Source: a virus
IMG/VR virus record: IMGVR_UViG_3300030108_005106
Location: 1-20,270 of that record
DNA: 20,270 nucleotides
Strand: one strand, 5' to 3'
Shown here one piece after another: positions 2,863-20,270 of this stretch. Within the stretch, counting starts at the first letter, position 1. Each line of letters begins with the position of its first letter. Both the position numbers and the translations under genes were made by a program. The notes under the pieces were generated by a model, which worked only from the letters and a program-made list of their open reading frames with translations, was not told the origin of the DNA and searched no databases.

Positions 2863-4800
2863 CTAAGTTCTAGGATGATGCACCGTATCTCCAGGTTGAT
2901 TAGCTCTAGTAGACGGTTGATACCAAGTTGTTATAGTATCAACAGCTGTACTAAACGATGTTGTATATGTCGTGGTAGTATTAAACGTCGTAGTTGTTGA
3001 TCTAGTCGTTGTATATACTGTGGTTGTTGTTGTACTAGTATTGAACGTAGTTGATGTACTAGTATTAAAAGTGGTTGTTGTGTTAGTACTAGTATTAAAA
3101 ATTGTTGTAGTAGCTGTACTTGTGTTAAACGTCGTAGTAGTTGATGTTGATGTATTAAACGTCGTTGTAGTCTCTGCCGATGTACTAAACAATGTTGATG
3201 TTGATTTAGTTGTATTATATACCGTTATAGTAGTAGTACTAGTATTAAATGTTGTTGTTGTACTTTTTGAAGTACTAAATGTTGTTGTTGTAGTTGTACT
3301 TGTATTAAATGTTGTACTAGTATTTTTACTTGTGCTAAATGTTGTTGTAAAACTAGTAGTAGTTGATTTAGACGTTTCATAAACAGTAGTTGTAGTGGTA
3401 CTTGTATTAAACGTTGTTGTCGTATTTATACTAGTTGGTACAGTTGTTCCAAAACTTGTTGTGGTACTTCTACTAGTATTATATACTGTTGTTGTTGACC
3501 TTGTTGTTTCAAACGTTGTTGTTGTACTAAATACAGTTACAGTACTAGTATTAAATGTAGTAGTGGTTGCAGTCGTTGTATTAAATACAGTATTAGTTGT
3601 GTATACTGTTGTTGTGCTCCTACTTTCAGTGGTATTACGGCTAGTTGAAAATGTAGTCGTAGTAGATCTACTTGTATTTTTACTTGTATTAAACGTTGTG
3701 GTAGTAGTAGTACTTGTATTAAAAGTAGTAGTTGTATTAGTAGACGTATTAAATGTTGTTATAGTATCTCTAGTCGTTATTCTACTAGTATTAAATGTAG
3801 TAGTATATTCAGTAGTAGTATCTCTAGCTGTATTAAAAGTAGTATTTCTACTAGTTGAAAAAGTAGTGGTTGTATTTTTACTAGTACTAATAGTTGTGGT
3901 TCTAGTTGTTGCTGTTGATCTAGTGGTACTAAAAGTCGTTGTATAAGTAGTTGTTGTAGAAGTACTAGTATTAAAAACTGTTGATGTTTGAGTAGTTCTA
4001 GCTGTATTAAATACTGTTGTAGTTGACGTATTAAAAGCAGTTATAGTAATTGTACTAGTGCTAAATGTCGTAGTTATATTTATAGGAACAGTATTTAAAG
4101 TATTTCTAACTGTATTATAAGTAGTAGTAGTAGTATAAGTAGTCGTAGTACTTCTACTTTCTGTAGTATTTCTATTCGTTGAAACTGTTGTAGTTCTGCT
4201 TGTACTAAATATAGTTACTGTTGAAGTATTAAAAACAGTATTAGTTGTATATACAGTCGTCGTATTTCTTGATTCAGTTGTATTTCTAGAGGTGCCAAAA
4301 GTTGTTGTATATACTGTTGTTGTACTAGTATTGAATACAGTATTAGTCGTATATGTTGTTGTAGTTGACCTAGATTCGAATGTATTTCTATTTGTATTAA
4401 ATGTTGTGGTTGTATTAAATACAGTAGTCGTAGATGTATTATAAATTGTTGTAGTACTTTTACTAGTATTAAATGTCGTGGTAGTTGATCTACTTGTATT
4501 AAAAACACTTGTATACGTAGTTGTTCTACTAGTATTATAAATTGTAGTTGTGTTTTTAGAAGTTGCGGTAGATCTAGTAGTCCCTCGTGATGTACTATAT
4601 GTTGTTGTTGTTTGGTATGCGGTAGTAGTATTAAAAGATGTATTAGTATCTGTTTCAGTTTCAAATGTAGTAGTTGTGCTATAAACAGTACTCGTGTTCC
4701 TACTCGTACCGGTATTTCTTGAAGTACCAAAGGTGGTAGTTGTATTTCTCAACGTTGGAAACGTGGTAGTTGTAGTTGTTGACCTACTAGTATTTGGCAT
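2863..4800 (-). CDS. Giant Thr/Ser-repeat protein, 645 aa (probable fibre or mucin-like virion protein)
   Basis: Nearly the whole protein (residues about 4-620) is a degenerate repeat of 8-10 residues with the core TTTxFNTSxS (variants TTTVYNTT, STSRNTTT). Roughly half the residues are Thr, with Ser, Asn, Phe/Tyr/Val and Arg/Lys making up most of the rest. Acidic residues are rare and mostly sit in a recurring ESRS/N motif. Thr alternating with aromatic or aliphatic residues suggests extended beta structure, as in a fibrous shaft. There is no signal peptide or membrane segment. The C-terminus (about 625-645) changes character to a Pro/His-rich tail ending GDTVHHPRT. The ATG at 4800 lies two bases after the upstream stop. 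It pairs with the second repeat protein at 5357-7753 but lacks that protein's C-terminal chaperone domain. Function is inferred from composition and neighbours. Confidence 0.75.
   Translation of the reverse strand: MPNTSRSTTTTTTFPTLRNTTTTFGTSRNTGTSRNTSTVYSTTTTFETETDTNTSFNTTTAYQTTTTYSTSRGTTRSTATSKNTTTIYNTSRTTTYTSVFNTSRSTTTTFNTSKSTTTIYNTSTTTVFNTTTTFNTNRNTFESRSTTTTYTTNTVFNTSTTTVYTTTFGTSRNTTESRNTTTVYTTNTVFNTSTVTIFSTSRTTTVSTNRNTTESRSTTTTYTTTTTYNTVRNTLNTVPINITTTFSTSTITITAFNTSTTTVFNTARTTQTSTVFNTSTSTTTTYTTTFSTTRSTATTRTTTISTSKNTTTTFSTSRNTTFNTARDTTTEYTTTFNTSRITTRDTITTFNTSTNTTTTFNTSTTTTTTFNTSKNTSRSTTTTFSTSRNTTESRSTTTVYTTNTVFNTTTATTTTFNTSTVTVFSTTTTFETTRSTTTVYNTSRSTTTSFGTTVPTSINTTTTFNTSTTTTTVYETSKSTTTSFTTTFSTSKNTSTTFNTSTTTTTTFSTSKSTTTTFNTSTTTITVYNTTKSTSTLFSTSAETTTTFNTSTSTTTTFNTSTATTTIFNTSTNTTTTFNTSTSTTFNTSTTTTTVYTTTRSTTTTFNTTTTYTTSFSTAVDTITTWYQPSTRANQPGDTVHHPRT
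2950..4790 (-). repeat. Degenerate ~24-30-base tandem coding repeats (Thr/Ser units)
   Basis: The plus strand shows continual runs of GTTGTTGTA and TACTAGTATTAAA; the minus strand encodes TTTxFNTSxS units. Units vary by one or two codons and synonymous codons differ between copies, so this is an old, diverged array rather than a recent expansion. A longer module, ESR-S/N followed by TTTxYTTNTVFNTST, recurs near 3622, 4157, 4270 and 4374. The array gives Val-rich open frames on the opposite strand, which are artefacts. Confidence 0.85.
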
Positions 4801-4802
4801 GA

Positions 4803-5357
4803 TTAATTTATTGTTTCACCTGATATTGGTATTATTATTTTACCGCCATCTTTTAAATTATTTGTATAATTATTTATTAATTTTGTTTTATGATCTTGTA
4901 TTATATCGTCTGGCTCCGCCCATAAATCACATATTATAATATCATATTTTTTTGAAGTAGCATATGTCCATTCGTCATGTTGTATTACATTTATATTATT
5001 ATTTATCCATGTAACATTATCTATTATTTCTTGGTCTGATTCTACAACATCTACAGAATGAGTTTTGTTACTATATATATATTCAGGAGTTAATCCCATA
5101 TATAAACCTAAATATAACACATCGCCCCATGTAACATCTGTAAATTGATTTTTACTTTCATTAAAATGAGAACAACCATCACATTCTCCTATATATACTT
5201 GTGCTTCTTTAACACTATTAAATTTATTATGTATTACATCTTGTTTATACTTAAATTCAGATATAGTATAATCATTATCGTTTTCATCTTTTTTAGTGAC
5301 TTTTTCTATAACAAAATTTGTACCGTTATGAGCTGATATTAAACTTTCATCTATCAT
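4803..5357 (-). CDS. Class I methyltransferase-like / spermidine-synthase-like protein, 184 aa
   Basis: A Rossmann-type SAM-binding order is visible: motif I as DVLYLGLYMGLTPEY (about 79-93, with the usual GxGxG relaxed to GLYMG), an acidic strand end VDVVESD (102-108), INVIQHDEW (122-130) and KYDIIICDLW (137-146), then DGGKIIIP (170-177). This order and the 'YDvIi.DlW' strand are most like spermidine-synthase-type proteins, but the protein is shorter than those enzymes and the polyamine site cannot be judged. The first 70 residues may form a small N-terminal beta region. Its ATG shares a base with the stop of the Thr-rich fibre gene (TAATG) and its stop is two bases before the next Thr-rich gene, so it lies inside the fibre cassette. 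A role in modifying the fibres is inference. Confidence 0.62.
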   Translation of the reverse strand: MIDESLISAHNGTNFVIEKVTKKDENDNDYTISEFKYKQDVIHNKFNSVKEAQVYIGECDGCSHFNESKNQFTDVTWGDVLYLGLYMGLTPEYIYSNKTHSVDVVESDQEIIDNVTWINNNINVIQHDEWTYATSKKYDIIICDLWAEPDDIIQDHKTKLINNYTNNLKDGGKIIIPISGETIN

Positions 5358-7753
5358 TATTTTAATTGTTTAAATTCAACATTTATTTTATCATAGTTAA
5401 CATGTTTATAACCGTTAACTTCGTAAACAGCACCCTCTATATTTTCAACTTCATCAGCTATAACTCCCTCATATTTACCTCGATGAGATTTATATTCGAA
5501 TGTATATATATTTATTCCGTCATGTGTTTGATATAAGAAATTAATATTTTTCTTTAATCTTCTATCAGAAGGGAAGCCTCCACCGCCGCCACAACCTGTT
5601 ACTTGTATTACATCTCCACTACCACCGCTAATTCTTATAAAGTGCGTTGCGCCAATAGCTGTACCATCATTAATAGCATAATATCCATCACTTAACGTAC
5701 TAGTTCCGCTACTATTAGTATAAGCAACAGAATTTGTAGTTGGTATTCCAGCAGAAGCATTAGTAAAGTAGAATGTAATACTTGGAAATTCAAAACATGC
5801 AAAATTAAAGCTTGTTGCACTTGATCTTTCTAAATTACTTAAACTTAAAGTCGTAGCATATACAGTAGTTGTTGAAGTACTTCCTGTTGTATTAAACTCT
5901 GTAGCTGTAGATCTAGCAGTATTAAAAGCGGTTGTTGTATTAAACGCGGTGCTTGTATTTCTGCTTTCCGTTGTACTTCTAGTTGTATTATAGAAAGAAG
6001 TGGTAGTTCTAGACGTTGCTGTACTTCTACTTTCTCCTGTGGCTGTACTAGTATTAAACGTAGTATTATAAAGTGTACCAGTATTAAACGTTGTGGTTGT
6101 AGTTTTTTGAGTTTGGAACGTTGTAGTTCTAGATGTTACAACACTTGTGCTAAACGTTGTAGTAGTAGATCTAGATGTGCTAAACGTTGTCGTAGTTGAT
6201 CTACTTGTTGATATAGTTGTTGATCTACTAGTTGAAGTACTTCTTGTTGTACTATAAACAGTGCTTGTAGTATATGTAGTTGTAGTACTCCTACTCTCAG
6301 TTGTGTTTTTTGATGTAGAAATTGTTGTTGTTCTACTGGTTGTTGTTGACGTATTAAAAGCAGTATTCGTTGTATATGTTGTCGTTGTTGATCTACTTTC
6401 CGTAGTATTTCTATTTGTAGAAATAGTGGTATCTGTTGACGTATTATATACAGTTGTTGTTGACGTGTTATATACAGTGTTTGTTGTATATGTAGTAGTT
6501 GTGCTTCTGCTTTCTGTTGTACTTCTACTAGTATTATATTCTGTTATTAATGTTTGTATAGAGTTTCTAATAAAAGTACTTCTAGTAGTATTATATACTG
6601 TAGTAGTATTTTTAGCTGTTTCAATAGTCGTAGTTCTAGACGTAGTATAAGTAGTAGTTGTATTTGTTGATCTATTTGTACTAAATGTTGTAGTTGTTGA
6701 CCTGCTGGTAGTTCTACTTGTATTAAATGTTGTAGTAGTATTAAAAGTTGTTACAGTACTTGTATTGTATACAGTCGTTGTTGTCGTACTTGTATTAAAT
6801 GTTGTACTTGCACTAGTAGCAAAATATGTTATAGTTGGTCTTGATGTAATTCTACTTGTACTAAAAGTTGTTGTATATGTAGTTGTAGTATCTTTAGATG
6901 TTGAAAAAGTTGTACTAGTTGATCTAGTTGTAGAAATAGTTGTTGTTGTACTTCTTGATGTGTTAAATGTAGTTGTATATACCGTAGTAGTAGAAGTACT
7001 CGTGTTAAATACTGTACTTGTTGTATACGTTGTTGTTGTATTTCTCGACTCTGTTGTGTTTCTATTTGTTGAAATTGTTGTATTTGTACTTCTTGATGTT
7101 GATATAGTAGTAGTTTTACTTGTTGTCGTAACAGTGCTTGTGTTAAATGCGGTTGTTGTAGACTTAGAAGTTGAGAATGTTGTAGTAGTACTTCTAGTTG
7201 TTGCTGTTGAAGTATTAAATACAGTAAGAGTTGTAAGAGTAGTACTAAAAGTTGTAGTCGTAGACCTAGTAGTATTATATACTGTTGTTGTAGATTTAGA
7301 AGTTGTAGTACTAGTATTAAAAGTAGTTACAGTAGCTGTACTAGTGTTAAAAGTTGTAGTTGTAGATCTAGTAGTATTGAATGTCGTAGTCGTAGACCTG
7401 GTTGTATTAAATGTCGTAGTTGTAGACCTTGAAGTTTCAAATGTCGTAGTTGTAGACCTTGAAGTTAAAAATTCTGATGTAGTTGATCTAGTGGTTGTAA
7501 ATGTTGTAGTTGTATTTTTAGATGTACTTACAACTGTATTTGTGTTTTTAGAAGTACTTACAACCGTGCTTGTTGATCTTGATGTAGAAAAAGTAGTTGT
7601 TCTTGAAGTACTAAAAGTAGTTGTTGTGGACTTAGAAGTTTCGTAAACAGTATTTGTTGACCTAGAAGTGCTAGTTGACCTCGAAGTAGTTCTGCTCGTA
7701 GACCTGCTAGTCCCGGTATTCCAAAAATCAATTCGTGACCAGAAGTTTCTCAT
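5357..7753 (-). CDS. Thr/Ser-repeat tail fibre with C-terminal S74 intramolecular chaperone domain, 798 aa
   Basis: Residues about 14-635 are the same TTTxFNTSxS repeat as the 645-residue protein. Residues about 636-728 form a distinct, probably globular beta domain (from LSLSNLERSS to a CGGGGG linker at about 720). Residues 729-798 begin SDRRLKKNI and contain GVIADEVENI and HVNYDKI, the hallmark of the Peptidase_S74 chaperone domain, which trimerises fibres and, in studied members, cuts itself off just before that Ser. The domain is short, about 70 residues. A receptor-binding fibre or spike is therefore likely. The N-terminus (MRNFWSRIDFWNTGTS) could be the virion anchor, though no known adaptor is visible. 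It heads a four-gene chain with the methyltransferase-like, second repeat and glycosyltransferase-like genes. Confidence 0.8.
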   Translation of the reverse strand: MRNFWSRIDFWNTGTSRSTSRTTSRSTSTSRSTNTVYETSKSTTTTFSTSRTTTFSTSRSTSTVVSTSKNTNTVVSTSKNTTTTFTTTRSTTSEFLTSRSTTTTFETSRSTTTTFNTTRSTTTTFNTTRSTTTTFNTSTATVTTFNTSTTTSKSTTTVYNTTRSTTTTFSTTLTTLTVFNTSTATTRSTTTTFSTSKSTTTAFNTSTVTTTSKTTTISTSRSTNTTISTNRNTTESRNTTTTYTTSTVFNTSTSTTTVYTTTFNTSRSTTTTISTTRSTSTTFSTSKDTTTTYTTTFSTSRITSRPTITYFATSASTTFNTSTTTTTVYNTSTVTTFNTTTTFNTSRTTSRSTTTTFSTNRSTNTTTTYTTSRTTTIETAKNTTTVYNTTRSTFIRNSIQTLITEYNTSRSTTESRSTTTTYTTNTVYNTSTTTVYNTSTDTTISTNRNTTESRSTTTTYTTNTAFNTSTTTSRTTTISTSKNTTESRSTTTTYTTSTVYSTTRSTSTSRSTTISTSRSTTTTFSTSRSTTTTFSTSVVTSRTTTFQTQKTTTTTFNTGTLYNTTFNTSTATGESRSTATSRTTTSFYNTTRSTTESRNTSTAFNTTTAFNTARSTATEFNTTGSTSTTTVYATTLSLSNLERSSATSFNFACFEFPSITFYFTNASAGIPTTNSVAYTNSSGTSTLSDGYYAINDGTAIGATHFIRISGGSGDVIQVTGCGGGGGFPSDRRLKKNINFLYQTHDGINIYTFEYKSHRGKYEGVIADEVENIEGAVYEVNGYKHVNYDKINVEFKQLK
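5850..7715 (-). repeat. Degenerate Thr/Ser coding repeat array of the S74 fibre gene
   Basis: This is the same kind of array as at 2950-4790, in a paralogous gene. The ESR-S/N plus TTTTYTTxTVxNTST module recurs near 6295, 6395, 6510 and 7046, with looser ESR copies near 5966 and 6026. Near-identical blocks in the two genes make homologous recombination or gene conversion between them plausible. Confidence 0.85.
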
Positions 7754-13113: not shown

Positions 13114-13550
13114 CTGTTTTTATCTTTTATCATATCATCAATAGATTTATTATAAACTCTATCACTATATGATTTGTTTTTGTAAAATATATTTCTTTCT
13201 GAAGTTGGAATATCCTCTTCACCCAATAGGATTCTGTATATACGGGATATAAGTTGACTAGATTTAAATGAGGTTTTGTATATACTATATTTAATTGAAG
13301 TTCTGTTTCTATGACGCCATACATCTATCCAACCATTTTTACGTAGTCTTTCCCATCGGTTTTTATCCCATGAGTATGTATAAACGCCCTCTATAAATTC
13401 ATTACGTGTAAATCGACCTTTGCAATCTAAATAGATCAAAAGCTCTAAATCAGCGTCTGTTAATTTATAAGTTTTGCAGGCCCATTTCCTAACAAGCCTA
13501 TAATATTTAAACAGATTAAGATCACGCAGATCTTGTGCTGCTAATTTCAT
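13110..13550 (-). CDS. Winged-helix (MarR-like) DNA-binding protein, 146 aa
   Basis: Residues about 14-95 follow a winged-helix order: a first helix FKYYRLVRKWACKTYKLTDAD, then LELLIYLDCKGRFTRNEF (helix-turn-helix start), a recognition-helix candidate WDKNRWERLRKNGW (61-74), and a basic two-stranded wing IDVWRHRNRTSIKYSIYKTS (75-94). The rest is a charged tail. MarR-like proteins of this size are frequent in marine phages. It could regulate late transcription or be a virion-associated DNA binder. It overlaps GroES by four bases at its start and the next gene by four at its end, so it is co-translated with the chaperonin pair. Confidence 0.6.
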   Translation of the reverse strand: MKLAAQDLRDLNLFKYYRLVRKWACKTYKLTDADLELLIYLDCKGRFTRNEFIEGVYTYSWDKNRWERLRKNGWIDVWRHRNRTSIKYSIYKTSFKSSQLISRIYRILLGEEDIPTSERNIFYKNKSYSDRVYNKSIDDMIKDKNR

Positions 13551-13804
13551 TCTACTAATACTATATCACCGATCTTTAAAACATAATATAATTTTTCATT
13601 AAGTTCTATACCATGCCCAGCATGCTTATCATAATGAATTATATCTCCTTCTTTCAATACTTCAACCATAGATCCAGCGGATATAACTTTACCTTTTAGG
13701 TATCTTACATCTTTATTTTGATCTTCTGTAAGCTCAAGCCCTCCCACTTTCTTCGGTGCTTCTTTTATTTTTTCAACTACTACGTAATAACTAACTGCTT
13801 GCAT
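13547..13804 (-). CDS. groES: Phage co-chaperonin GroES (Cpn10), 85 aa
   Basis: The Cpn10 pattern is clear: YYVVVEKIKEAP at the first strand, a mobile loop KVGGLELTEDQ with GGLEL (21-25) at the place of the bacterial GGIVL tripeptide, YLKGKVISAG (36-44), LKEGDIIHYDK (50-60), then EKLYYVLKIGDIVLVE to the end. It is about ten residues shorter than bacterial GroES, mostly around the roof region. It should form the heptameric lid of the adjacent GroEL. Its ATG lies 14 bases inside the groEL 3' end, so the order is groEL then groES, opposite to the usual bacterial operon. Confidence 0.85.
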   Translation of the reverse strand: MQAVSYYVVVEKIKEAPKKVGGLELTEDQNKDVRYLKGKVISAGSMVEVLKEGDIIHYDKHAGHGIELNEKLYYVLKIGDIVLVE

Positions 13805-15356
13805 TTTCTACTCTTACATTATTAATTACACAATCAGCTGAAAATATTGTAGTAACTACACTAACTGCATTTTTTAATGCTGTTTTAGTTACAAGAACAG
13901 GATCTATAATACCTGCTTTTATCATATCAACTTCTTTATTTTGTACAACATCAATACCGAATCCTCTTTTAGTAGACTCAAAATGATTTAATGCTGCGTT
14001 ATCAAGTATAGTTGCATATGGTGACTTTATTGCTTGTAAAAGTATTTCTTCACCTTCATTTTCAGGTGCAATACTATATGAAGCATCTAATAAAGCAACA
14101 CCACCTCCAGCAACAATACCTTCTTGTAAAGCTGCTTTAGTAGCATATATTGCATCTTCGACTCTATCTTTCTTTTCTTTCATTTCAACTTTTGAGTCGG
14201 CTCCGACTTTTATCATCGCTACTTTACCGTTTAGCATAGCTAATCGTTCTTGTAGCTTCTTCTTAAAGTACGGATTTTTTTCTTCTTTTAATAATGTTTC
14301 AACATTACTAATTCTTTGTTTTGAATCTTTACCTTGATCAATTGTTTGAAGAACTGTATGTTTATCATCAGTTATAGATTTAAAACATTCACCTAATACA
14401 TCAGGTTGTATTAAATCTAAATCATCTCCAAGTTCTTCATTTATTATTTTTGCTCCTGTTAATATCGCAAGATCTTCAATTGTATCTTGTTTTGTTGGAC
14501 CGAATCCAGGCAAATCTACAACATTTACTTTTATATTACCTTTTACTTTGTTAGCTAGTAACGCTGCTTTAGGTTGTTGTTCTACGCTTGCAACGATCAA
14601 CAAACTCCTTTTCTGTTTTATAACAAACTCTAATACACTTTGTATTTTACGAATATTAGGTATTGGCGATGCAACTATCAGTACGTACGGATTATCTAGT
14701 TCCGCTTTACCTTTATCCTTATCTGTTATAAAATGTGGCGATGTGAGCCCGCAACTAATTCTTGTGCCCTCAACGAATGTTACATGAGTGTCATGGGTCT
14801 CAGACTCTTCCATAAGAACGACACCATCCTTACCTACTTTTGAATAGGCTTGCGATATTATCTTACCAAGAGCTTCATCATTATTACAACTAATAGTACT
14901 TACATTGTGTAACATTTTGTTAGTTACTTTAATTGCTTTCTTATCTAAGTAGCTAAATACTTTATTAGCGGCTGATAATATGCCGTCTTTTATAGGTCGT
15001 ATACTTTGAGCATACTTTTTTTGGTTAGCTATGTGCAATAATGATTGAGCAAGCACAGTAGCTGTAGTAGTACCGTCGCCTGCTTCTTTAACTGTATTTC
15101 TAGCCGCTTCTTTTATTAATGTAGCGCCTATGTTCTCAACCGGATCATATAAGACTACGGATTCAGCTACCGTTACACCATCTTTTGTAATCACCGGTTT
15201 TCCTAGCGCATCTTCATAGATTACGCATTTACCTGAAGCACCAAGGGTTGACTTAACAGCATTAGCTAATTTATCAACCCCGTGCATTATTTTTTCTTGT
15301 GCATCTGTCCCGAAAGACAGATTCTTTACTATCTCACTTGGATTATTATATTCCAT
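13791..15356 (-). CDS. groEL: Phage chaperonin GroEL (Cpn60), 521 aa
   Basis: Full-length chaperonin that folds proteins in a double-ring cage with ATP. ATP-site motifs are intact: TKDGVTVA (57-64), GDGTTTATVLAQ (93-104) and AGGGVALL (416-423) with an Asp in RVEDA (401), matching the three catalytic aspartates of the family (D52, D87 and D398 in E. coli numbering, aligned by eye). Also seen are VGKDGVVLMEES (174-185) and, near the end, the ring-closing DPVLVTKTALKNAVSV (485-500). It ends ...VENASS, without the Gly-Gly-Met tail of bacterial GroEL, and is shorter by about 25 residues. Some apical substrate- and GroES-binding positions differ from E. coli. It is co-transcribed with groES and the virion genes, so it probably folds phage structural proteins. 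Confidence 0.95.
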   Translation of the reverse strand: MEYNNPSEIVKNLSFGTDAQEKIMHGVDKLANAVKSTLGASGKCVIYEDALGKPVITKDGVTVAESVVLYDPVENIGATLIKEAARNTVKEAGDGTTTATVLAQSLLHIANQKKYAQSIRPIKDGILSAANKVFSYLDKKAIKVTNKMLHNVSTISCNNDEALGKIISQAYSKVGKDGVVLMEESETHDTHVTFVEGTRISCGLTSPHFITDKDKGKAELDNPYVLIVASPIPNIRKIQSVLEFVIKQKRSLLIVASVEQQPKAALLANKVKGNIKVNVVDLPGFGPTKQDTIEDLAILTGAKIINEELGDDLDLIQPDVLGECFKSITDDKHTVLQTIDQGKDSKQRISNVETLLKEEKNPYFKKKLQERLAMLNGKVAMIKVGADSKVEMKEKKDRVEDAIYATKAALQEGIVAGGGVALLDASYSIAPENEGEEILLQAIKSPYATILDNAALNHFESTKRGFGIDVVQNKEVDMIKAGIIDPVLVTKTALKNAVSVVTTIFSADCVINNVRVENASS

Positions 15357-16481: not shown

Positions 16482-16525
16482 GTGACACTAGCTCCTTATT
16501 ATTATATAATAATACCTTATGTCAT
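16482..16525. repeat. Inverted repeat GTGACA ... TGTCA(T) enclosing a perfect AT palindrome
   Basis: GTGACA (16482-16487) faces TGTCAT (16520-16525) across 32 bases; the centre TATTATTATATAATAATA (16497-16514) is a perfect 18-base palindrome. The block shares GTGACA, AGCT, TATTAT and TGTCA in the same order with the one at 17475-17519. Likely roles are an operator for a dimeric regulator or an origin element. Confidence 0.6.
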
Positions 16526-16673: not shown

Positions 16674-16697
16674 ATCCCCTCGAAAGTTTCAGCTTTT

Positions 16698-16727
16698 GCG
16701 TGCGTAACACGAGCGCTTATGGATAAT
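16698..16727 (+). promoter_or_regulatory. Phage promoter-like element 1 (rightward)
   Basis: CACGAG (16708-16713), seven bases CGCTTAT, then GGATAAT (16721-16727) and AAG. The 3' two thirds match the repeated element; the upstream half (GCGTGCGTAA) diverges. It lies 33 bases before the ATG of the 56-residue membrane gene. Confidence 0.5.
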
Positions 16728-16760
16728 AAGTATGTAAATAACCTATAAAAAAACAATATT

Positions 16761-16931
16761 ATGAAAAGAACATTCACACACATCACGCTGGCACAGGCTT
16801 GGAAGTTAACGTTAGACCTAATATGTGTATCATTAATCGGATTAGCAATCTTCGGTTTGGTCGGTGTAATCGGTACAATCATCATGGACCCGAGTGTAAT
16901 CGATGGTGCAAGCTTCGGAATCTACGGATAA
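16761..16931 (+). CDS. Small single-pass membrane protein, 56 aa, first rightward gene
   Basis: ATG AAA AGA starts MKRTFTHITLAQAWKLTLDL, followed by a long hydrophobic segment (residues about 20-42, ICVSLIGLAIFGLVGVIGTI) and a short polar tail ending SFGIYG. It should cross the inner membrane once. The start MKRTFTHITLA resembles MKKRFKHLTLA of the membrane protein at 19439-19606, so the two are probably paralogues. It is less AT-rich than its neighbours. A promoter-like element lies just upstream, and a second copy overlaps its stop codon. Early phage membrane microproteins often act on host envelope functions, but no target can be named. Confidence 0.65.
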   Translation: MKRTFTHITLAQAWKLTLDLICVSLIGLAIFGLVGVIGTIIMDPSVIDGASFGIYG

Positions 16932-16953
16932 AACACGAAGTACAATGGATAAT
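16924..16953 (+). promoter_or_regulatory. Phage promoter-like element 2 (rightward)
   Basis: ACGGATAAAACACGAA, seven bases GTACAAT, then GGATAAT (16947-16953) and ATAA. It overlaps the stop codon of the 56-residue gene and precedes the 103-residue gene (ATG 16986). Between them ATG at 16958 opens an eight-codon frame (MKLIIKNK) that could be a leader peptide or nothing. Confidence 0.6.
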
Positions 16954-16985
16954 ATAAATGAAATTAATAATTAAAAATAAATAAT

Positions 16986-17297
16986 ATGAATACTAAATTA
17001 AATCAAGCAATAGCTAAACTAAGTAAGAAAGAATTAAAAGAAATCTTTCCACCAATTACAAGAAAGAACTTTGTAGTAAGAAAGTCATGGTACGGTAGAA
17101 ATCAAGTGATAACTTTCGTAAACAATAAGAATCAAAAGATAACTTATAATCACGACGAAGTATTAAAGATAATGCTACCAAAGTTAAACATCATGCCATG
17201 CTGGCTAAAGAGAGGTTACTGGTCTCAGTCAACTGACATGCCAAGCAACACTAGAGAGTGTGTAATTGAAAGAGTAGACCTTACTAAAAAGAAGTAG
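16986..17297 (+). CDS. Unknown small protein, 103 aa
   Basis: A basic protein with no recognised family. The N-terminal third is helical (KLNQAIAKLSKKELKEIFPP). A middle part RKNFVVRKSWYGRNQVITFV with NNKNQKITYNHDEVLKIML reads as beta strands then a helix. The end contains PCWLKRGYWSQSTDMPSNTR. No catalytic motif or membrane segment is visible. The net positive charge and a Trp/Tyr-rich C-terminus would allow nucleic-acid binding, but this is a guess. It starts after an A-rich leader behind element 2 and ends just before a GC-rich, foldable stretch. Confidence 0.65.
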   Translation: MNTKLNQAIAKLSKKELKEIFPPITRKNFVVRKSWYGRNQVITFVNNKNQKITYNHDEVLKIMLPKLNIMPCWLKRGYWSQSTDMPSNTRECVIERVDLTKKK

Positions 17298-17314
17298 GGT
17301 CTAGCACCAAGCAG

Positions 17315-17404
17315 GGCGCGACAAGATATGCGGAAAGCATCACTCGGCATCGGCCCTCGGTGTATAGCAATGTATAGCATTGCGTGTACAGCAAAAACCG
17401 CGCC
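17315..17404 (+). ncRNA. Candidate structured RNA (GC-rich, branched fold)
   Basis: A closing helix GGCGCG (17315-17320) with CGCGCC (17399-17404) can enclose three hairpins: ATGC-GGAAA-GCAT (17328-17340); CAC...GTG (17341-17362) with a further short GG/CC helix; and GCAATG-TATAG-CATTGC (17367-17383), lengthened across a small internal loop by TGTA (17361-17364) with TACA (17387-17390). The two TGTA/GTG bases overlap with the second hairpin, so both cannot form completely at once. It resembles no RNA family I know, and has no T-loop sequence, so it is not a tRNA. The strand is assumed from the direction of neighbouring genes. Confidence 0.35.
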
Positions 17405-17428
17405 GGAATCTACACCGTATGTCGTATT

Positions 17429-17452
17429 GTCATAACAAGTTATTAACATGAC
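17429..17452. repeat. Inverted repeat GTCAT ... ATGAC
   Basis: GTCAT (17429-17433) faces ATGAC (17448-17452) with AACAAGTTATTAAC between; TGTCAA follows at 17457. It belongs to a cluster of TGTCA motifs with the larger inverted repeat at 17475-17519. Operator or origin site is possible. Confidence 0.45.
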
Positions 17453-17474
17453 GTAATGTCAATCGGTAAATAGT

Positions 17475-17519
17475 GTGACAAAAGCTACCTATTATACTAT
17501 ATTATGTAGTAAATGTCAC
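17475..17519. repeat. Inverted repeat GTGACA ... TGTCAC, related to 16482-16525
   Basis: GTGACA (17475-17480) and TGTCAC (17514-17519) form a perfect six-base inverted repeat with 33 bases between. The interior shares AGCT, a C-C run, TATTAT and TATAT/ATTAT in the same order as the block in the divergent gap, so the two are probably copies of one site. A dimeric DNA-binding protein or replication initiator could bind both. Confidence 0.55.
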
Positions 17520-17601
17520 TGTTTTTACTTCTTTGACTAAGAGACTGAGTACAATACCTACAATACTTTAATTGAATAGTAAACAATTAATATACTTTTA
17601 T

Positions 17602-17631
17602 ACAAACTAAATACGAAGTCATTTGGATAAT
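17602..17631 (+). promoter_or_regulatory. Phage promoter-like element 3 (rightward)
   Basis: ACAAACTAAATACGAA, seven bases GTCATTT, then GGATAAT and ATAA. This is a full match to the consensus, lying 25 bases before the ATG at 17657, and the only nearby candidate to drive the four-gene run 17657-18410. Confidence 0.65.
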
Positions 17632-17656
17632 ATAAGTGTAAATAAAAATAATAATT

Positions 17657-17782
17657 ATGACACTTAAAAAACTAATACAACAATTAAAAGATTTAGAAAC
17701 TTTAAATACTCAAGTTGACGATTTCAATGTAGAAATAGAATACCCAAATCCTTTTCAAATGAAAATAACTATAAATAAATAA
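17657..17782 (+). CDS. Small protein, 41 aa
   Basis: ATG ACA CTT starts MTLKKLIQQLKDLETLN, an amphipathic helix, then TQVDDFNVEIEYPNPF and a short strand MKITINK. I know no family for it. Support for a real gene is the promoter-like element upstream, an A-rich leader (AATAATAATT), and an ATG for the next gene four bases after its stop. It could be a small regulator or inhibitor made early. Confidence 0.6.
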   Translation: MTLKKLIQQLKDLETLNTQVDDFNVEIEYPNPFQMKITINK

Positions 17783-17786
17783 TAAA

Positions 17787-17987
17787 ATGAATATAGAGAA
17801 ATTAATTAAAAACGAAATACAAAACCATACTGACGTAGAGTATTGGGGAACTGAAGAAAATATTAATAATGAAAATATAATATTTGACTATGTATTAGAC
17901 AATAATATAGTAAACCAAGATTGGTTTGACACTAAATTAAAATATACAAATGTAGAGTTATTAGAGGAATTATTAAAAGAATTATAA
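17787..17987 (+). CDS. Small acidic protein, 66 aa
   Basis: Very acidic and Asn-rich (VEYWGTEENINNENIIFDYV, LEELLKEL at the end), predicted helical, with no recognised domain. Its first residues MNIEKLIKN resemble the MNIEQLKRF start of the product at 18183-18410, which may reflect chance or common ancestry. It lies four bases after the previous stop and one base before the next ATG, so it belongs to a compact early operon. Acidic early microproteins may imitate DNA or bind basic host proteins, but that is speculation here. Confidence 0.62.
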   Translation: MNIEKLIKNEIQNHTDVEYWGTEENINNENIIFDYVLDNNIVNQDWFDTKLKYTNVELLEELLKEL

Positions 17988-17988
17988 T

Positions 17989-18186
17989 ATGAAAGAATTT
18001 TATTGGAATACCGAAACATTAGAGTACTATGCTCTACACCAAAATGAAATACCCAACTTTGTTAAATTTGAATGTGACTTAGAAGATGGCGAAACTGAAG
18101 AAGATTTAATAAAAGATTTAACTAAACAAAGTAAACAATACTATAAAAACTTAATAAATAACGATACATTAAAATACAGAAAATGA
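17989..18186 (+). CDS. Small acidic protein, 65 aa
   Basis: Residues about 1-30 contain FYWNTETLEYYALHQNEIPN, and about 29-42 are strongly acidic (ECDLEDGETEEDLI), followed by a basic helix KQSKQYYKNLIN. No family or catalytic motif is recognised. The stop TGA overlaps the next ATG (ATGA), a translational coupling arrangement. It is likely an early host-interaction protein, function unknown. Confidence 0.62.
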   Translation: MKEFYWNTETLEYYALHQNEIPNFVKFECDLEDGETEEDLIKDLTKQSKQYYKNLINNDTLKYRK

Positions 18187-18410
18187 ATATAGAACAATTA
18201 AAAAGATTTGAAAACTCTTTAGTAAATACTGAAGATATATACCATGAAATTGCAAAAAACTATGTAATTGCAATGTCAAGAAGTATGGGAAATAAAAGTA
18301 AAAGCTTACTTTCATTAGACGAGTTTTTATGTGAATACTCTGACTATATGGATTATGACGACTTAAAGTTAGGTGAATCAATACTAAGGTTATTTGAAAT
18401 TACAAACTAA
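18183..18410 (+). CDS. Small helical protein, 75 aa
   Basis: Predicted helical with an acidic C-terminal half (SLLSLDEFLCEYSDYMDYDD). The ATG overlaps the previous stop by four bases (ATGA), and the stop codon TAA at 18408-18410 lies within the upstream half of promoter-like element 4. No family is recognised. Its N-terminus MNIEQLKRF echoes the start of the product at 17787-17987. Confidence 0.62.
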   Translation: MNIEQLKRFENSLVNTEDIYHEIAKNYVIAMSRSMGNKSKSLLSLDEFLCEYSDYMDYDDLKLGESILRLFEITN

Positions 18411-18431
18411 CTACGAAACTAAATGGATAAT
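18402..18431 (+). promoter_or_regulatory. Phage promoter-like element 4 (rightward)
   Basis: ACAAACTAACTACGAA, seven bases ACTAAAT, then GGATAAT. One mismatch to the consensus box. It overlaps the previous gene's stop codon and lies 17 bases before the ATG at 18449. Confidence 0.62.
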
Positions 18432-18448
18432 AAAATAAAATAATAACT

Positions 18449-18583
18449 ATGAGATACGATAAATATAAACTAGTAAACGATGTAGTAGACGGTATGATAT
18501 ACGTCGAAGAAATTAATGAGTGGGTAAGTATTAACTCACTTGAGAAAGCTAACGAAATGATAGATTTTTATGAAGGTAACTAA
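18449..18583 (+). CDS. Small protein, 44 aa
   Basis: The frame encodes MRYDKYKLVNDVVDGMIYVE, then EINEWVSINSLEKANEMIDF and YEGN. The layout (short beta hairpin, then helix) looks like a compact domain; no family is recognised. It follows promoter-like element 4 and an A/T leader. The next gene's ATG (18585) is one base after its stop. An upstream in-frame ATG of that gene at 18570 would overlap this gene, so 18585 is the more likely start for the neighbour. Confidence 0.6.
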   Translation: MRYDKYKLVNDVVDGMIYVEEINEWVSINSLEKANEMIDFYEGN

Positions 18584-18584
18584 T

Positions 18585-18773
18585 ATGAAAGAGTTGTTAG
18601 AGTATGTAGCAACTAAAAGAAAAAAACGAGCTCATGACCATTACGAATTAGTAAAAATATATGGTCCCTGTAAAGGAATGGGTAATAGAAGATATAAAGT
18701 ACCACAAAAAAGTACTTTTAGTAAATATAAAAAGTATAGTTTCACTGCAAGATGGAACAACTTTCACAAATGA
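18585..18773 (+). CDS. Small basic protein, 62 aa
   Basis: Starts MKELLEYVATKRKKRAHDHY, then ELVKIYGPCKGMGNRRYKVP and a basic, aromatic tail (KYKKYSFTARWNNFHK). The basic GMGNRRYK segment could contact nucleic acid. I chose ATG 18585 because it follows the previous stop by one base; an ATG at 18570 adds five residues and overlaps the upstream gene. The stop (18771-18773) falls inside promoter-like element 5. No family is recognised. Confidence 0.6.
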   Translation: MKELLEYVATKRKKRAHDHYELVKIYGPCKGMGNRRYKVPQKSTFSKYKKYSFTARWNNFHK

Positions 18774-18795
18774 AATACGAACTAAATTGGATAAT
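18766..18795 (+). promoter_or_regulatory. Phage promoter-like element 5 (rightward)
   Basis: ACAAATGAAATACGAA, seven bases CTAAATT, then GGATAAT and ATAA. Two mismatches to the consensus box, same spacing. It overlaps the previous stop codon and lies nine bases before the ATG at 18805, so an RNA beginning at the GG would have a leader of about 16 bases. Confidence 0.62.
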
Positions 18796-18804
18796 ATAAA
18801 CGAT

Positions 18805-19047
18805 ATGAATAAATACAAAACACTATACGACAAACTACTTCCACCTCTTAAAGATGCACTCAGACAAAGTGCACGAGAGTACGACGGTGCTAAAAGATTA
18901 AAATATAATCTAATGAGCAAGTCGCACTGGTGGGATTTAAACATTGAAGAAATAAAAGAAATATTCACTTGGTGTAATATATATTCCTTCGAATATGATG
19001 CATACACATTTTTATACGGTGAAAAAATAATTAAGAAAGATGACTAA
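18805..19047 (+). CDS. Small protein, 80 aa
   Basis: ATG at 18805 is chosen because it is the first after promoter-like element 5; an in-frame ATG at 18661 would read 48 codons through the preceding gene and is unlikely. The product (MNKYKTLYDKLLPPLKDALR, HWWDLNIEEIKEIFTWCNIY) is helical with a Trp/Phe-rich second half and a basic end (EKIIKKDD). No family is recognised. It overlaps the next gene by eight bases. Confidence 0.62.
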   Translation: MNKYKTLYDKLLPPLKDALRQSAREYDGAKRLKYNLMSKSHWWDLNIEEIKEIFTWCNIYSFEYDAYTFLYGEKIIKKDD

Positions 19048-19252
19048 AGAATATAAAGATTACCCACAAGAAAAGATTGACGCGAAGCTTAAGCAAGTTC
19101 AAGAATTTGAAAGCAAGTACGGTGAATCAACAAGAACTATAGCTTGGAAAAAGTGGTGTACTGACATCAACTATAGAAGAAGAGAATGGCAATTCCGAAT
19201 GGGTCTTGCAGAGTGGGCATTACATAACGCACATAAAGGATTTATAAAATGA
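19040..19252 (+). CDS. Small helical protein, 70 aa
   Basis: Long charged helix in the first half (YPQEKIDAKLKQVQEFESKY), then RTIAWKKWCTDINYRRREWQ and a C-terminal AEWALHNAHKG. A coiled-coil or nucleic-acid-binding helix is possible. It is translationally linked on both sides (eight-base overlap upstream, ATGA overlap downstream). No family is recognised. Confidence 0.62.
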   Translation: MTKEYKDYPQEKIDAKLKQVQEFESKYGESTRTIAWKKWCTDINYRRREWQFRMGLAEWALHNAHKGFIK

Positions 19253-19455
19253 CAAAATTAAATATAATACTGGAACTAGCACAAGCTTTGACACAATACG
19301 ACCAAGGTGAAGGTGCATTCACTGAGATGAGAGCTAACGGTACATTAGACGAGCCAAGTTATCTCAGAAAAAAAGAAGATAACGCAGATGATTTTATCAA
19401 TGCAATTAGAGATTTAACTAACAGAATAACAGAAGATTATGAAAAAAAGATTTAA
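19249..19455 (+). CDS. Small acidic helical protein, 68 aa
   Basis: ATGA overlap with the previous gene. Contains LELAQALTQYDQGEGAFTEM, a Gly-Thr-Leu-Asp-Glu turn, and KKEDNADDFINAIRDLTNRI. Mostly helical and acidic; no family is recognised. Its final codons overlap the start of the next membrane gene by 17 bases. Confidence 0.62.
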   Translation: MTKLNIILELAQALTQYDQGEGAFTEMRANGTLDEPSYLRKKEDNADDFINAIRDLTNRITEDYEKKI

Positions 19456-19606
19456 ACATTTAACATTAGCGAGAGTTACGGATATAATGATATGGACTGT
19501 AATAAGTGCGCTAGGAACTATGGCAATAACCGGAATATTATTTATGATTTATGGATTAATATTTTTAGATTTCGGTGGTAAAGCAAACTTTGCTTGTTGC
19601 TTTTAA
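19439..19606 (+). CDS. Small single-pass membrane protein, 55 aa
   Basis: Encodes MKKRFKHLTLARVTDIMIWT, then a hydrophobic run (residues about 17-43, VISALGTMAITGILFMIYGL) and a tail DFGGKANFACCF. The opening MKKRFKHLTLAR parallels MKRTFTHITLAQ of the first rightward gene (16761-16931), suggesting paralogy. Its ATG overlaps the previous gene by 17 bases. The tail bears two Cys. Function is unknown. Confidence 0.6.
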   Translation: MKKRFKHLTLARVTDIMIWTVISALGTMAITGILFMIYGLIFLDFGGKANFACCF

Positions 19607-19617
19607 TACTATATATT

Positions 19618-19812
19618 ATGGAAAAATTTGATAGATATAAACAAAACTTAACAAGAGTAGGTGATGAAATATATTCTTACTCTACAAACGTTGCAACAAT
19701 TGAATACCCAAACTTAATACAGCACGGGTGGTGGAGTGTAACAACACAGAAACATATCAACTATGTTGCAAGAGAATTAGGATTAACAATTAAAAAACCA
19801 TATTTAAAATGA
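19618..19812 (+). CDS. Small protein, 64 aa
   Basis: ATG at 19618 follows an A/T leader (ACTATATATT); an earlier in-frame ATG at 19594 adds nine hydrophobic residues translated from inside the preceding gene and is unlikely. The product has YKQNLTRVGDEIYSYSTNVA, then PNLIQHGWWSVTTQKHINYV and a helical end. The TRVGDEIYSYST and WWSVTTQKHINYVARELG layout looks like a small beta-then-helix fold. No family is recognised. The stop overlaps the next ATG (ATGA). Confidence 0.62.
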   Translation: MEKFDRYKQNLTRVGDEIYSYSTNVATIEYPNLIQHGWWSVTTQKHINYVARELGLTIKKPYLK

Positions 19813-20039
19813 GAACATTTACATTTATGAGAAATCCAAACGATTTGGTAAAGCCAATTGGTGAAGACTGTGAAATTGTAACTATACCGTTTCGATCGAA
19901 TCTAGGTCCAGAGATAATAACTAAAGTAATGAATACTGATAAATTTGAAATACTTGGCATTCAGGAAGATGGCTCATGGACTATGGAAATTATAGCAAGA
20001 AAAATAGATAAGCCAATATACACAAAGAAAGATGAGTAA
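19809..20039 (+). CDS. Small protein, 76 aa
   Basis: Starts with ATGA overlap. Contains FTFMRNPNDLVKPIGEDCEI, VTIPFRSNLGPEIITKVMNT and QEDGSWTMEIIARK, apparently beta-rich with one helix. No family or catalytic residues are recognised. It ends eight bases inside the next gene. Probably an early host-takeover protein of unknown target. Confidence 0.62.
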   Translation: MRTFTFMRNPNDLVKPIGEDCEIVTIPFRSNLGPEIITKVMNTDKFEILGIQEDGSWTMEIIARKIDKPIYTKKDE

Positions 20040-20226
20040 AATGAAAGAGCTAGAACATATTGCAGATTGTGTAGTAGAAGTATTAGACGAACTAATAGAG
20101 CACAATATTGCATGGGCGGTAGATGATACAATTGTAGATAAGCTTGATGGTGACGATTTCACCGATGCTATACACCAAATCCGCCAAAATGTTATACACA
20201 AACTAAATACGAAGTATAACGGATAA
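20032..20226 (+). CDS. Small acidic helical protein, 64 aa
   Basis: Strongly acidic helices (MKELEHIADCVVEVLDELIE, AWAVDDTIVDKLDGDDFTDA) with a basic end IHKLNTKYNG. ATG 20032 overlaps the previous stop by eight bases; ATG 20041 is an alternative start two residues after the stop of that gene. Its last codons are themselves the promoter-like element 6, and its stop TAA lies in the GGATAAT box, so one stretch of DNA serves as gene end and control site. Confidence 0.6.
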   Translation: MSKMKELEHIADCVVEVLDELIEHNIAWAVDDTIVDKLDGDDFTDAIHQIRQNVIHKLNTKYNG

Positions 20227-20227
20227 T
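20198..20227 (+). promoter_or_regulatory. Phage promoter-like element 6 (rightward)
   Basis: ACAAACTAAATACGAA (identical to element 3), seven bases GTATAAC, then GGATAAT and AA. It overlaps the last codons of the upstream gene and precedes the ATG at 20232 by four bases. Confidence 0.65.
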
Positions 20228-20231
20228 AAAT

Positions 20232-20270
20232 ATGAACGAATTGCAATGGAAGCGCACCGCTGGCGAAGAA
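20232..20270 (+). CDS. Start of a further small rightward gene (truncated by the window edge)
   Basis: ATG at 20232, directly behind promoter-like element 6, opens a frame reading MNELQWKRTAGEE to the end of the window. Nothing can be said about function. An RNA beginning at the GG of that element would have a leader of about eleven bases before this ATG. Confidence 0.4.
   Translation, partial: MNELQWKRTAGEE

Follow-up and report, generated by a model that had tools for sequence, protein, structure and literature searches.

Probable sigma-type promoters recurring across an uncultured marine virus family, and a candidate phage-encoded sigma factor

The IMG/VR virus record IMGVR_UViG_3300030108_005106, a single linear sequence of 20,270 bases that represents a genome fragment (hereafter, the window), carries six copies of a promoter-like element. 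Each copy is sequentially composed of an upstream box, a spacer of exactly seven bases, and GGATAATA. The six repeats are probably promoters of a large family of uncultured marine viruses, known from metagenomes only, whose hosts are probably Bacteroidota. Judged from sequence, the promoters are likely to be read by the host core RNA polymerase together with a sigma factor encoded by the phage. The motif, its spacing, its linkage to strand and genes, the start position, and the co-occurrence with a sigma gene were computed. A description of the motif was not found in the literature searched, which comprised open-licence papers only.

The six sites begin at positions 16698, 16924, 17602, 18402, 18766, and 20198, all on the plus strand, where a preliminary description of the window had placed them. 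Each of the six contains [CT]ACGA[AG], exactly seven bases, and GGATAATA, and a reversed-pattern control returns no match. The 16-base box, described as common to all copies, is strong at 17602, 18402, 18766, and 20198 (matrix scores of 49, 44, 40, and 45, respectively), partial at 16924 (32), and weak at 16698 (16), where just the last ~6 bases are preserved. The full 30-base consensus, with at most three mismatches, has four matches in the window compared with 0.00 expected from dinucleotide shuffles. As also described, the stop codon of the previous gene lies within the site in four cases (16929-16931, 18408-18410, 18771-18773, and 20224-20226). Not every site can be seen to precede a gene: five stand ahead of a complete open reading frame (ORF), and the contig ends 43 bases after the sixth.

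The consensus over 405 distinct sites is TTACAAACTAAATACGA-N7-TGGATAATA-TAAAT-[A/G], in which TGGATAATA is followed by five bases and a purine; the ACGA and GGATAAT positions of the 405-site logo were imposed by the search. Matrices adapted to each locus agree with this logo and also reveal variants. The logo reads GATAATA and then, 7 nucleotides (nt) beyond GATAAT, a purine in 97-99% of sites. This final purine was assigned as +1 because start codons begin there or later, almost never earlier. Among 568 sites, 90 have an ATG at the purine, and 86 of these ATGs begin an ORF of 40 codons or more; for an ATG at -2 the count is 11 of 152 (Fisher p=1e-47), the baseline for random ATGs being 26%. 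The ATG found at 20232 in the window occupies position -2 of promoter 6 and is probably not a start codon. At about 15% of sites the leader has zero length, which predicts a leaderless mRNA. With +1 so placed, GATAAT spans -12 to -7 and a 17-bp box lies at -38 to -22. This arrangement matches a bacterial sigma-type promoter with GGATAATA as the -10 element and not a T7-type promoter. The box contains two TACRA words 11 bp apart that flank -35.

The element is widespread among related phages. A scan of viral contigs with the box core and GGATAATA matched at least 120 stretches. The short pattern is present in 29 of 30 related IMG/VR contigs, typically in 4-8 copies clustered within a few kilobases, and the sites all lie on a single strand, barring one reversed site in one contig; the same 30 contigs read backwards gave one match. 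In ten contigs analyzed in full, the sites stand at the start of a gene block that runs opposite to the structural genes. The two contigs G001 (82% in the terminase) and G026, which are nearly identical to each other and among the closest to the window, have a site layout in common with it. De novo dyad counting in the upstream regions of 10 genomes returned ACGA-8-GGAT as the strongest signal (z=27). The spacing is rigid: ACGA-N8-GGATAAT occurs 174 times in 80 loci picked by another gene, and the count for any other spacing between 0 and 20 is at most three. The preliminary description had proposed looking in related phages for copies at random positions and orientations, and there the pattern proved not to be random. 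The sites cluster within ~10 kb and lie on the gene strand (167 versus 7). Only 19% of sites fall inside a long same-strand ORF versus 62% of random positions, and the median distance from a site to the start codon downstream is 19 nt. Strand, intergenic placement, and start-codon linkage thus bear out the earlier proposal of a promoter bound by a protein of fixed geometry.

Clustering of the proteins of the ten genomes and the window revealed one family of ~250 amino acids with sigma-70 regions 2 and 4. TIGR02937 scores above its cut-off in four of five members, Sigma70_r2 and r4 match too, and region 2.2 contains a conserved DLIQEGNxGL sequence. A profile search against solved structures found SigA, RpoD, and FliA, and an AlphaFold model (mean predicted local distance difference test score of 72) matches sigmaA chains of initiation complexes. 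The family is present in all nine motif-bearing contigs that are complete over the region and in none of three motif-less relatives. Of the 30 related contigs, 26 encode the sigma factor. Among the other four, G004 has no site, and G001, G006, and G020 stop or break before the expected sigma position; G026, the partner of G001, extends to that position and encodes the sigma factor. In the reciprocal direction, all 74 loci chosen by the sigma gene and having at least 8 kb upstream contain at least two sites (mean 7.8), for a total of 640 sites versus 7 in reversed sequence. IMG/VR holds hundreds of stretches with a gene for a relative of this sigma factor, and a tblastn search with it found no relative in 50,697 phage records. 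In two contigs, the sigma gene is split into overlapping frames, through either sequencing error or decay (G023 58338-59098 and G010 55767-56520).

These data suggest a mechanism in which the ~250-amino-acid sigma-70-family factor would redirect the host core RNA polymerase. The polymerase-sigma complex would melt the -10 element TGGATAATA and initiate at the purine 7 nt beyond GATAAT. The box TTACAAACTAAATACGA would replace a classical -35 element and determine phage specificity, and may be contacted by sigma region 4, by an accessory phage DNA-binding protein, or by both. A candidate accessory protein is a ~206-amino-acid helix-turn-helix (HTH) protein whose gene immediately precedes and overlaps the sigma gene. 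The promoter set would drive a same-strand block of about seven short operons with short leaders, made up of small genes of unknown function. Binding by the sigma factor, participation of an accessory protein, and the timing of expression of the genes are predictions.

Several observations weigh against this mechanism. The conserved box reaches -22, whereas the normal reach of sigma region 4 into the spacer is shorter. Because the sigma gene is found downstream of the site cluster, its first expression must be started by something else; host sigmaA-like promoters are not enriched at the start of the block in the upstream regions of 10 genomes. The window's own sigma gene is off the contig, and the factor is known from the relatives. 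Finally, phages with differing boxes (L313 versus L338; L299 versus the consensus) have a near-identical sigma region 4.2, and the distances between sigma factors show no relation to those between boxes (partial r = -0.09).

The last point concerns the variation of the box. The -10 element is nearly invariant, whereas the box is phage-specific, with a mean of 3.2 mismatches within a phage and 4.3 between phages. Clear dialects of the box are found at loci L313, L364, L299, L303, L366, and L371, for example AAAAAGGTT.ACACGA (L313 and L364), CCCC.AACTA.TAC.A (L299), and ACGGAGCAAACACGT (L366). Either the box is recognized through a small number of sigma residues outside region 4.2, or its reader is a different protein. 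The phage sigma factor may read the -10 element only, with a second phage protein reading the 17-bp box and specificity switched repeatedly; this division of labor is a distinct possibility rather than the expectation. If it holds, each lineage has a private dialect, and the family contains a natural set of mutually orthogonal promoters.

Across as many as 52 protein families, neither distance correlation nor nearest-neighbor prediction clearly singled out a reader of the box. The HTH protein carries its motif at the C terminus, with a weak HTH_11 match below the cut-off. Its gene (L214:1923-2546) is located just upstream of the sigma gene and overlaps it by four bases in G005. Its recognition helix is conserved as well and leaves the dialects unexplained, so the protein is a candidate cofactor rather than an evident reader of the box. 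A homologue clusters in elemo phage, which itself lacks the sigma factor and the motif. Covariation between sigma residues and base columns of the motif was mostly driven by outliers, and one plausible link connects region 3.0 (RIPEHK versus RLPEHVT) with base -14.

A second protein at the box could also act without the phage sigma factor. A phage activator at the -38 to -22 box, resembling cII or MotA, would then recruit host RNA polymerase that carries one of the host's own sigma factors, and the phage sigma factor would serve other promoters, such as late ones. The paired TACRA words around -35 resemble an activator site, the dialects shift without a matching change in region 4.2, and the sites precede the sigma gene. 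This alternative is nevertheless unlikely, as motif and sigma gene co-occur perfectly in both directions and the -10 element GGATAATA differs from the -7 box TAnnTTTG of flavobacterial sigmaA (PMC9723704). It also lacks a repeated late-strand motif for the phage sigma factor to serve; a search for late-strand motifs yielded nothing except one conserved coding segment.

A function other than transcription initiation, such as an operator, a replication or packaging site, or an mRNA leader element, is very improbable. An inverted repeat nearby indicates that other regulatory DNA occurs in the same region, but the fixed strand, the intergenic placement, the constant 7-nt offset to a purine, and the leaderless ATGs at +1 argue for a promoter. 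An mRNA element would in addition leave the conservation upstream of +1 unexplained. A promoter for a T7-like single-subunit RNA polymerase, with GGATAATA as initially transcribed sequence, is hardly credible: ATACGA...GG superficially resembles TAATACGACTCACTATAGGG, with GG about 9 nt later, but start-codon use puts +1 12 nt past GG rather than at GG, and PF00940 matched none of 30 relatives, the control genomes being likewise silent. A virion RNA polymerase within the giant structural proteins of 2,000-3,900 amino acids was also rejected, since these contain no RNA polymerase motif, just DFDDTL stretches.

A regulon of a host alternative sigma factor was rejected: with at most three mismatches the motif occurs in 10 of 299 Flavobacteriaceae genomes, mostly in chance-like fashion, and host copies are not conserved within two genera. 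Near-perfect copies are found in metagenome-assembled Flavobacteriaceae chromosomes (L252, L253, L254, L255, and L258). Such copies on host contigs lie before a TerB-like gene, directly behind tRNA-Asp with an ATG at +1, and, in three places, before a gene for a small secreted protein. They may represent phage DNA acquired by the host, or host genes that have come under the control of the phage sigma factor. The promoter is also carried by a 64-kb contig of a Prochlorococcus single-cell genome (L246), which has the appearance of phage DNA wrongly attributed to the cyanobacterium.

The predicted system can be compared with known ones. T4 middle promoters, which depend on MotA and AsiA, keep a sigma-type -10 element but have a phage box where -35 would be, and host sigma70 is remodelled by AsiA. 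The promoters described here likewise have a phage-specific box in place of -35 and retain a sigma-type -10 element. Unlike T4, the phages encode their own sigma factor, and no relative of MotA or AsiA was identified. Lambda CII promoters contain TTGC-N6-TTGC direct repeats one helical turn apart around -35. The TACRA-N6-TACRA arrangement is similar in geometry only: no CII relative was found, and the two words vary independently among phages.

The closest parallel is offered by phiEco32 and phage 7-11, the best-studied podoviruses with a sigma factor of their own among those found, in which the podovirus sigma-70-family proteins gp36 and gp47, respectively, redirect the host core polymerase to phage promoters genome-wide (PMC8948821). 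Their start sites lie 6-9 nt past a -10-like element, and the promoters, which serve middle and late genes, consist of a single element tAATGTAtA or a bipartite GTAAtg-(16)-aCTA (PMC8948821). The sigma factors are divergent between the two relatives and the promoter consensus changes alongside (PMC8948821). The present phages share a phage-encoded sigma-70-family protein, a recurring phage-specific promoter, and a constant start offset, but their predicted promoters combine a 17-bp box at -38 to -22 with TGGATAATA and serve small genes opposite in strand to the structural genes. Phage sigma-promoter systems of this type are therefore already known, and the promoter sequence and layout found here differ. 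On the host side, RNA sequencing of F. psychrophilum mapped the motifs TAnnTTTG and TAnnTTGY as well as sigma54 and extracytoplasmic function (ECF) motifs (PMC9723704). The TAnnTTTG box of flavobacterial sigmaA promoters (-12 to -5) is absent from the logo and the other mapped host motifs also differ (PMC9723704), although the host RNA polymerase core is presumed the same.

Table 1. Positions of the predicted promoters and neighboring features in the window
Feature	Position	Strand	Details
Promoter 1, weakest copy	16696..16734	+	degenerate box 16696-16712; GATAAT 16722-16727; inferred +1 G16734; 27-nt leader; ATG 16761
Promoter 2	16922..16960	+	partial box 16922-16938; GATAAT 16948-16953; inferred +1 G16960; 26-nt leader; ATG 16986
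Promoter 3, best copy	17600..17638	+	box 17600-17616; GATAAT 17626-17631; inferred +1 G17638; 19-nt leader; ATG 17657
Promoter 4	18400..18438	+	box 18400-18416; GATAAT 18426-18431; inferred +1 A18438; 11-nt leader; ATG 18449
Promoter 5	18764..18802	+	box 18764-18780; GATAAT 18790-18795; inferred +1 G18802; 3-nt leader; ATG 18805
Promoter 6	20196..20234	+	box 20196-20212; GATAAT 20222-20227; inferred +1 G20234
Block of small unknown genes	16761..20270	+	predicted to be promoter-driven
Inverted repeat TGACAnnAGC...TGTCA	16483..16524	.	junction where late (-) and promoter-driven (+) genes diverge
Inverted repeat, second copy	17476..17518	.	upstream of promoter 3

The leftward genes of the window encode the start of the large terminase, tail-fibre-like and structural proteins, a holin, GroES, and GroEL. 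The rightward genes, from 16761 on, are small and have no assigned function. In the relatives, the genes for the HTH protein and the sigma factor follow 2.6-8 kb downstream, and the window contig ends sooner. The terminase of the window is nearest to that of the metagenomic podovirus MW202828 (55%) and to those of Cellulophaga and Flavobacterium phages. A Bacteroidota host is likely, given these relatives and the absence of Shine-Dalgarno sequences. The phage-encoded GroES/GroEL pair (13547-15356, minus strand) is conserved across all related genomes examined. Two very long proteins with Thr/Ser/Asn repeats, in units such as STTTTFNTS, are encoded at 2863-4800 and 5357-7753 on the minus strand, and the C-terminal end of the second resembles an S74-type tail-spike chaperone (DRRLKKNI).

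The inverted repeat recurs in many relatives as a ~42-bp TGACAnnAGCC...GGCTnnTGTCA sequence, which is found both at the divergent junction and across the initiation codon of the gene pair for the HTH protein and the sigma factor (e.g. L214:1887-1928). It has no match in reversed sequence. The repeat may be an operator or switch of the sigma operon.

For this family of metagenome-derived phages, sequence alone yields predictions of single-base start sites, of the cognate sigma factor, and of the promoter variants of individual viruses, the last as a map of dialects. The promoter is a sequence marker with which metagenome fragments can be recruited. The promoters are also candidate orthogonal promoters for Bacteroidota, in which common promoters fail. 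The family as a whole presents a natural experiment in which promoter specificity shifts while the sigma factor barely does.

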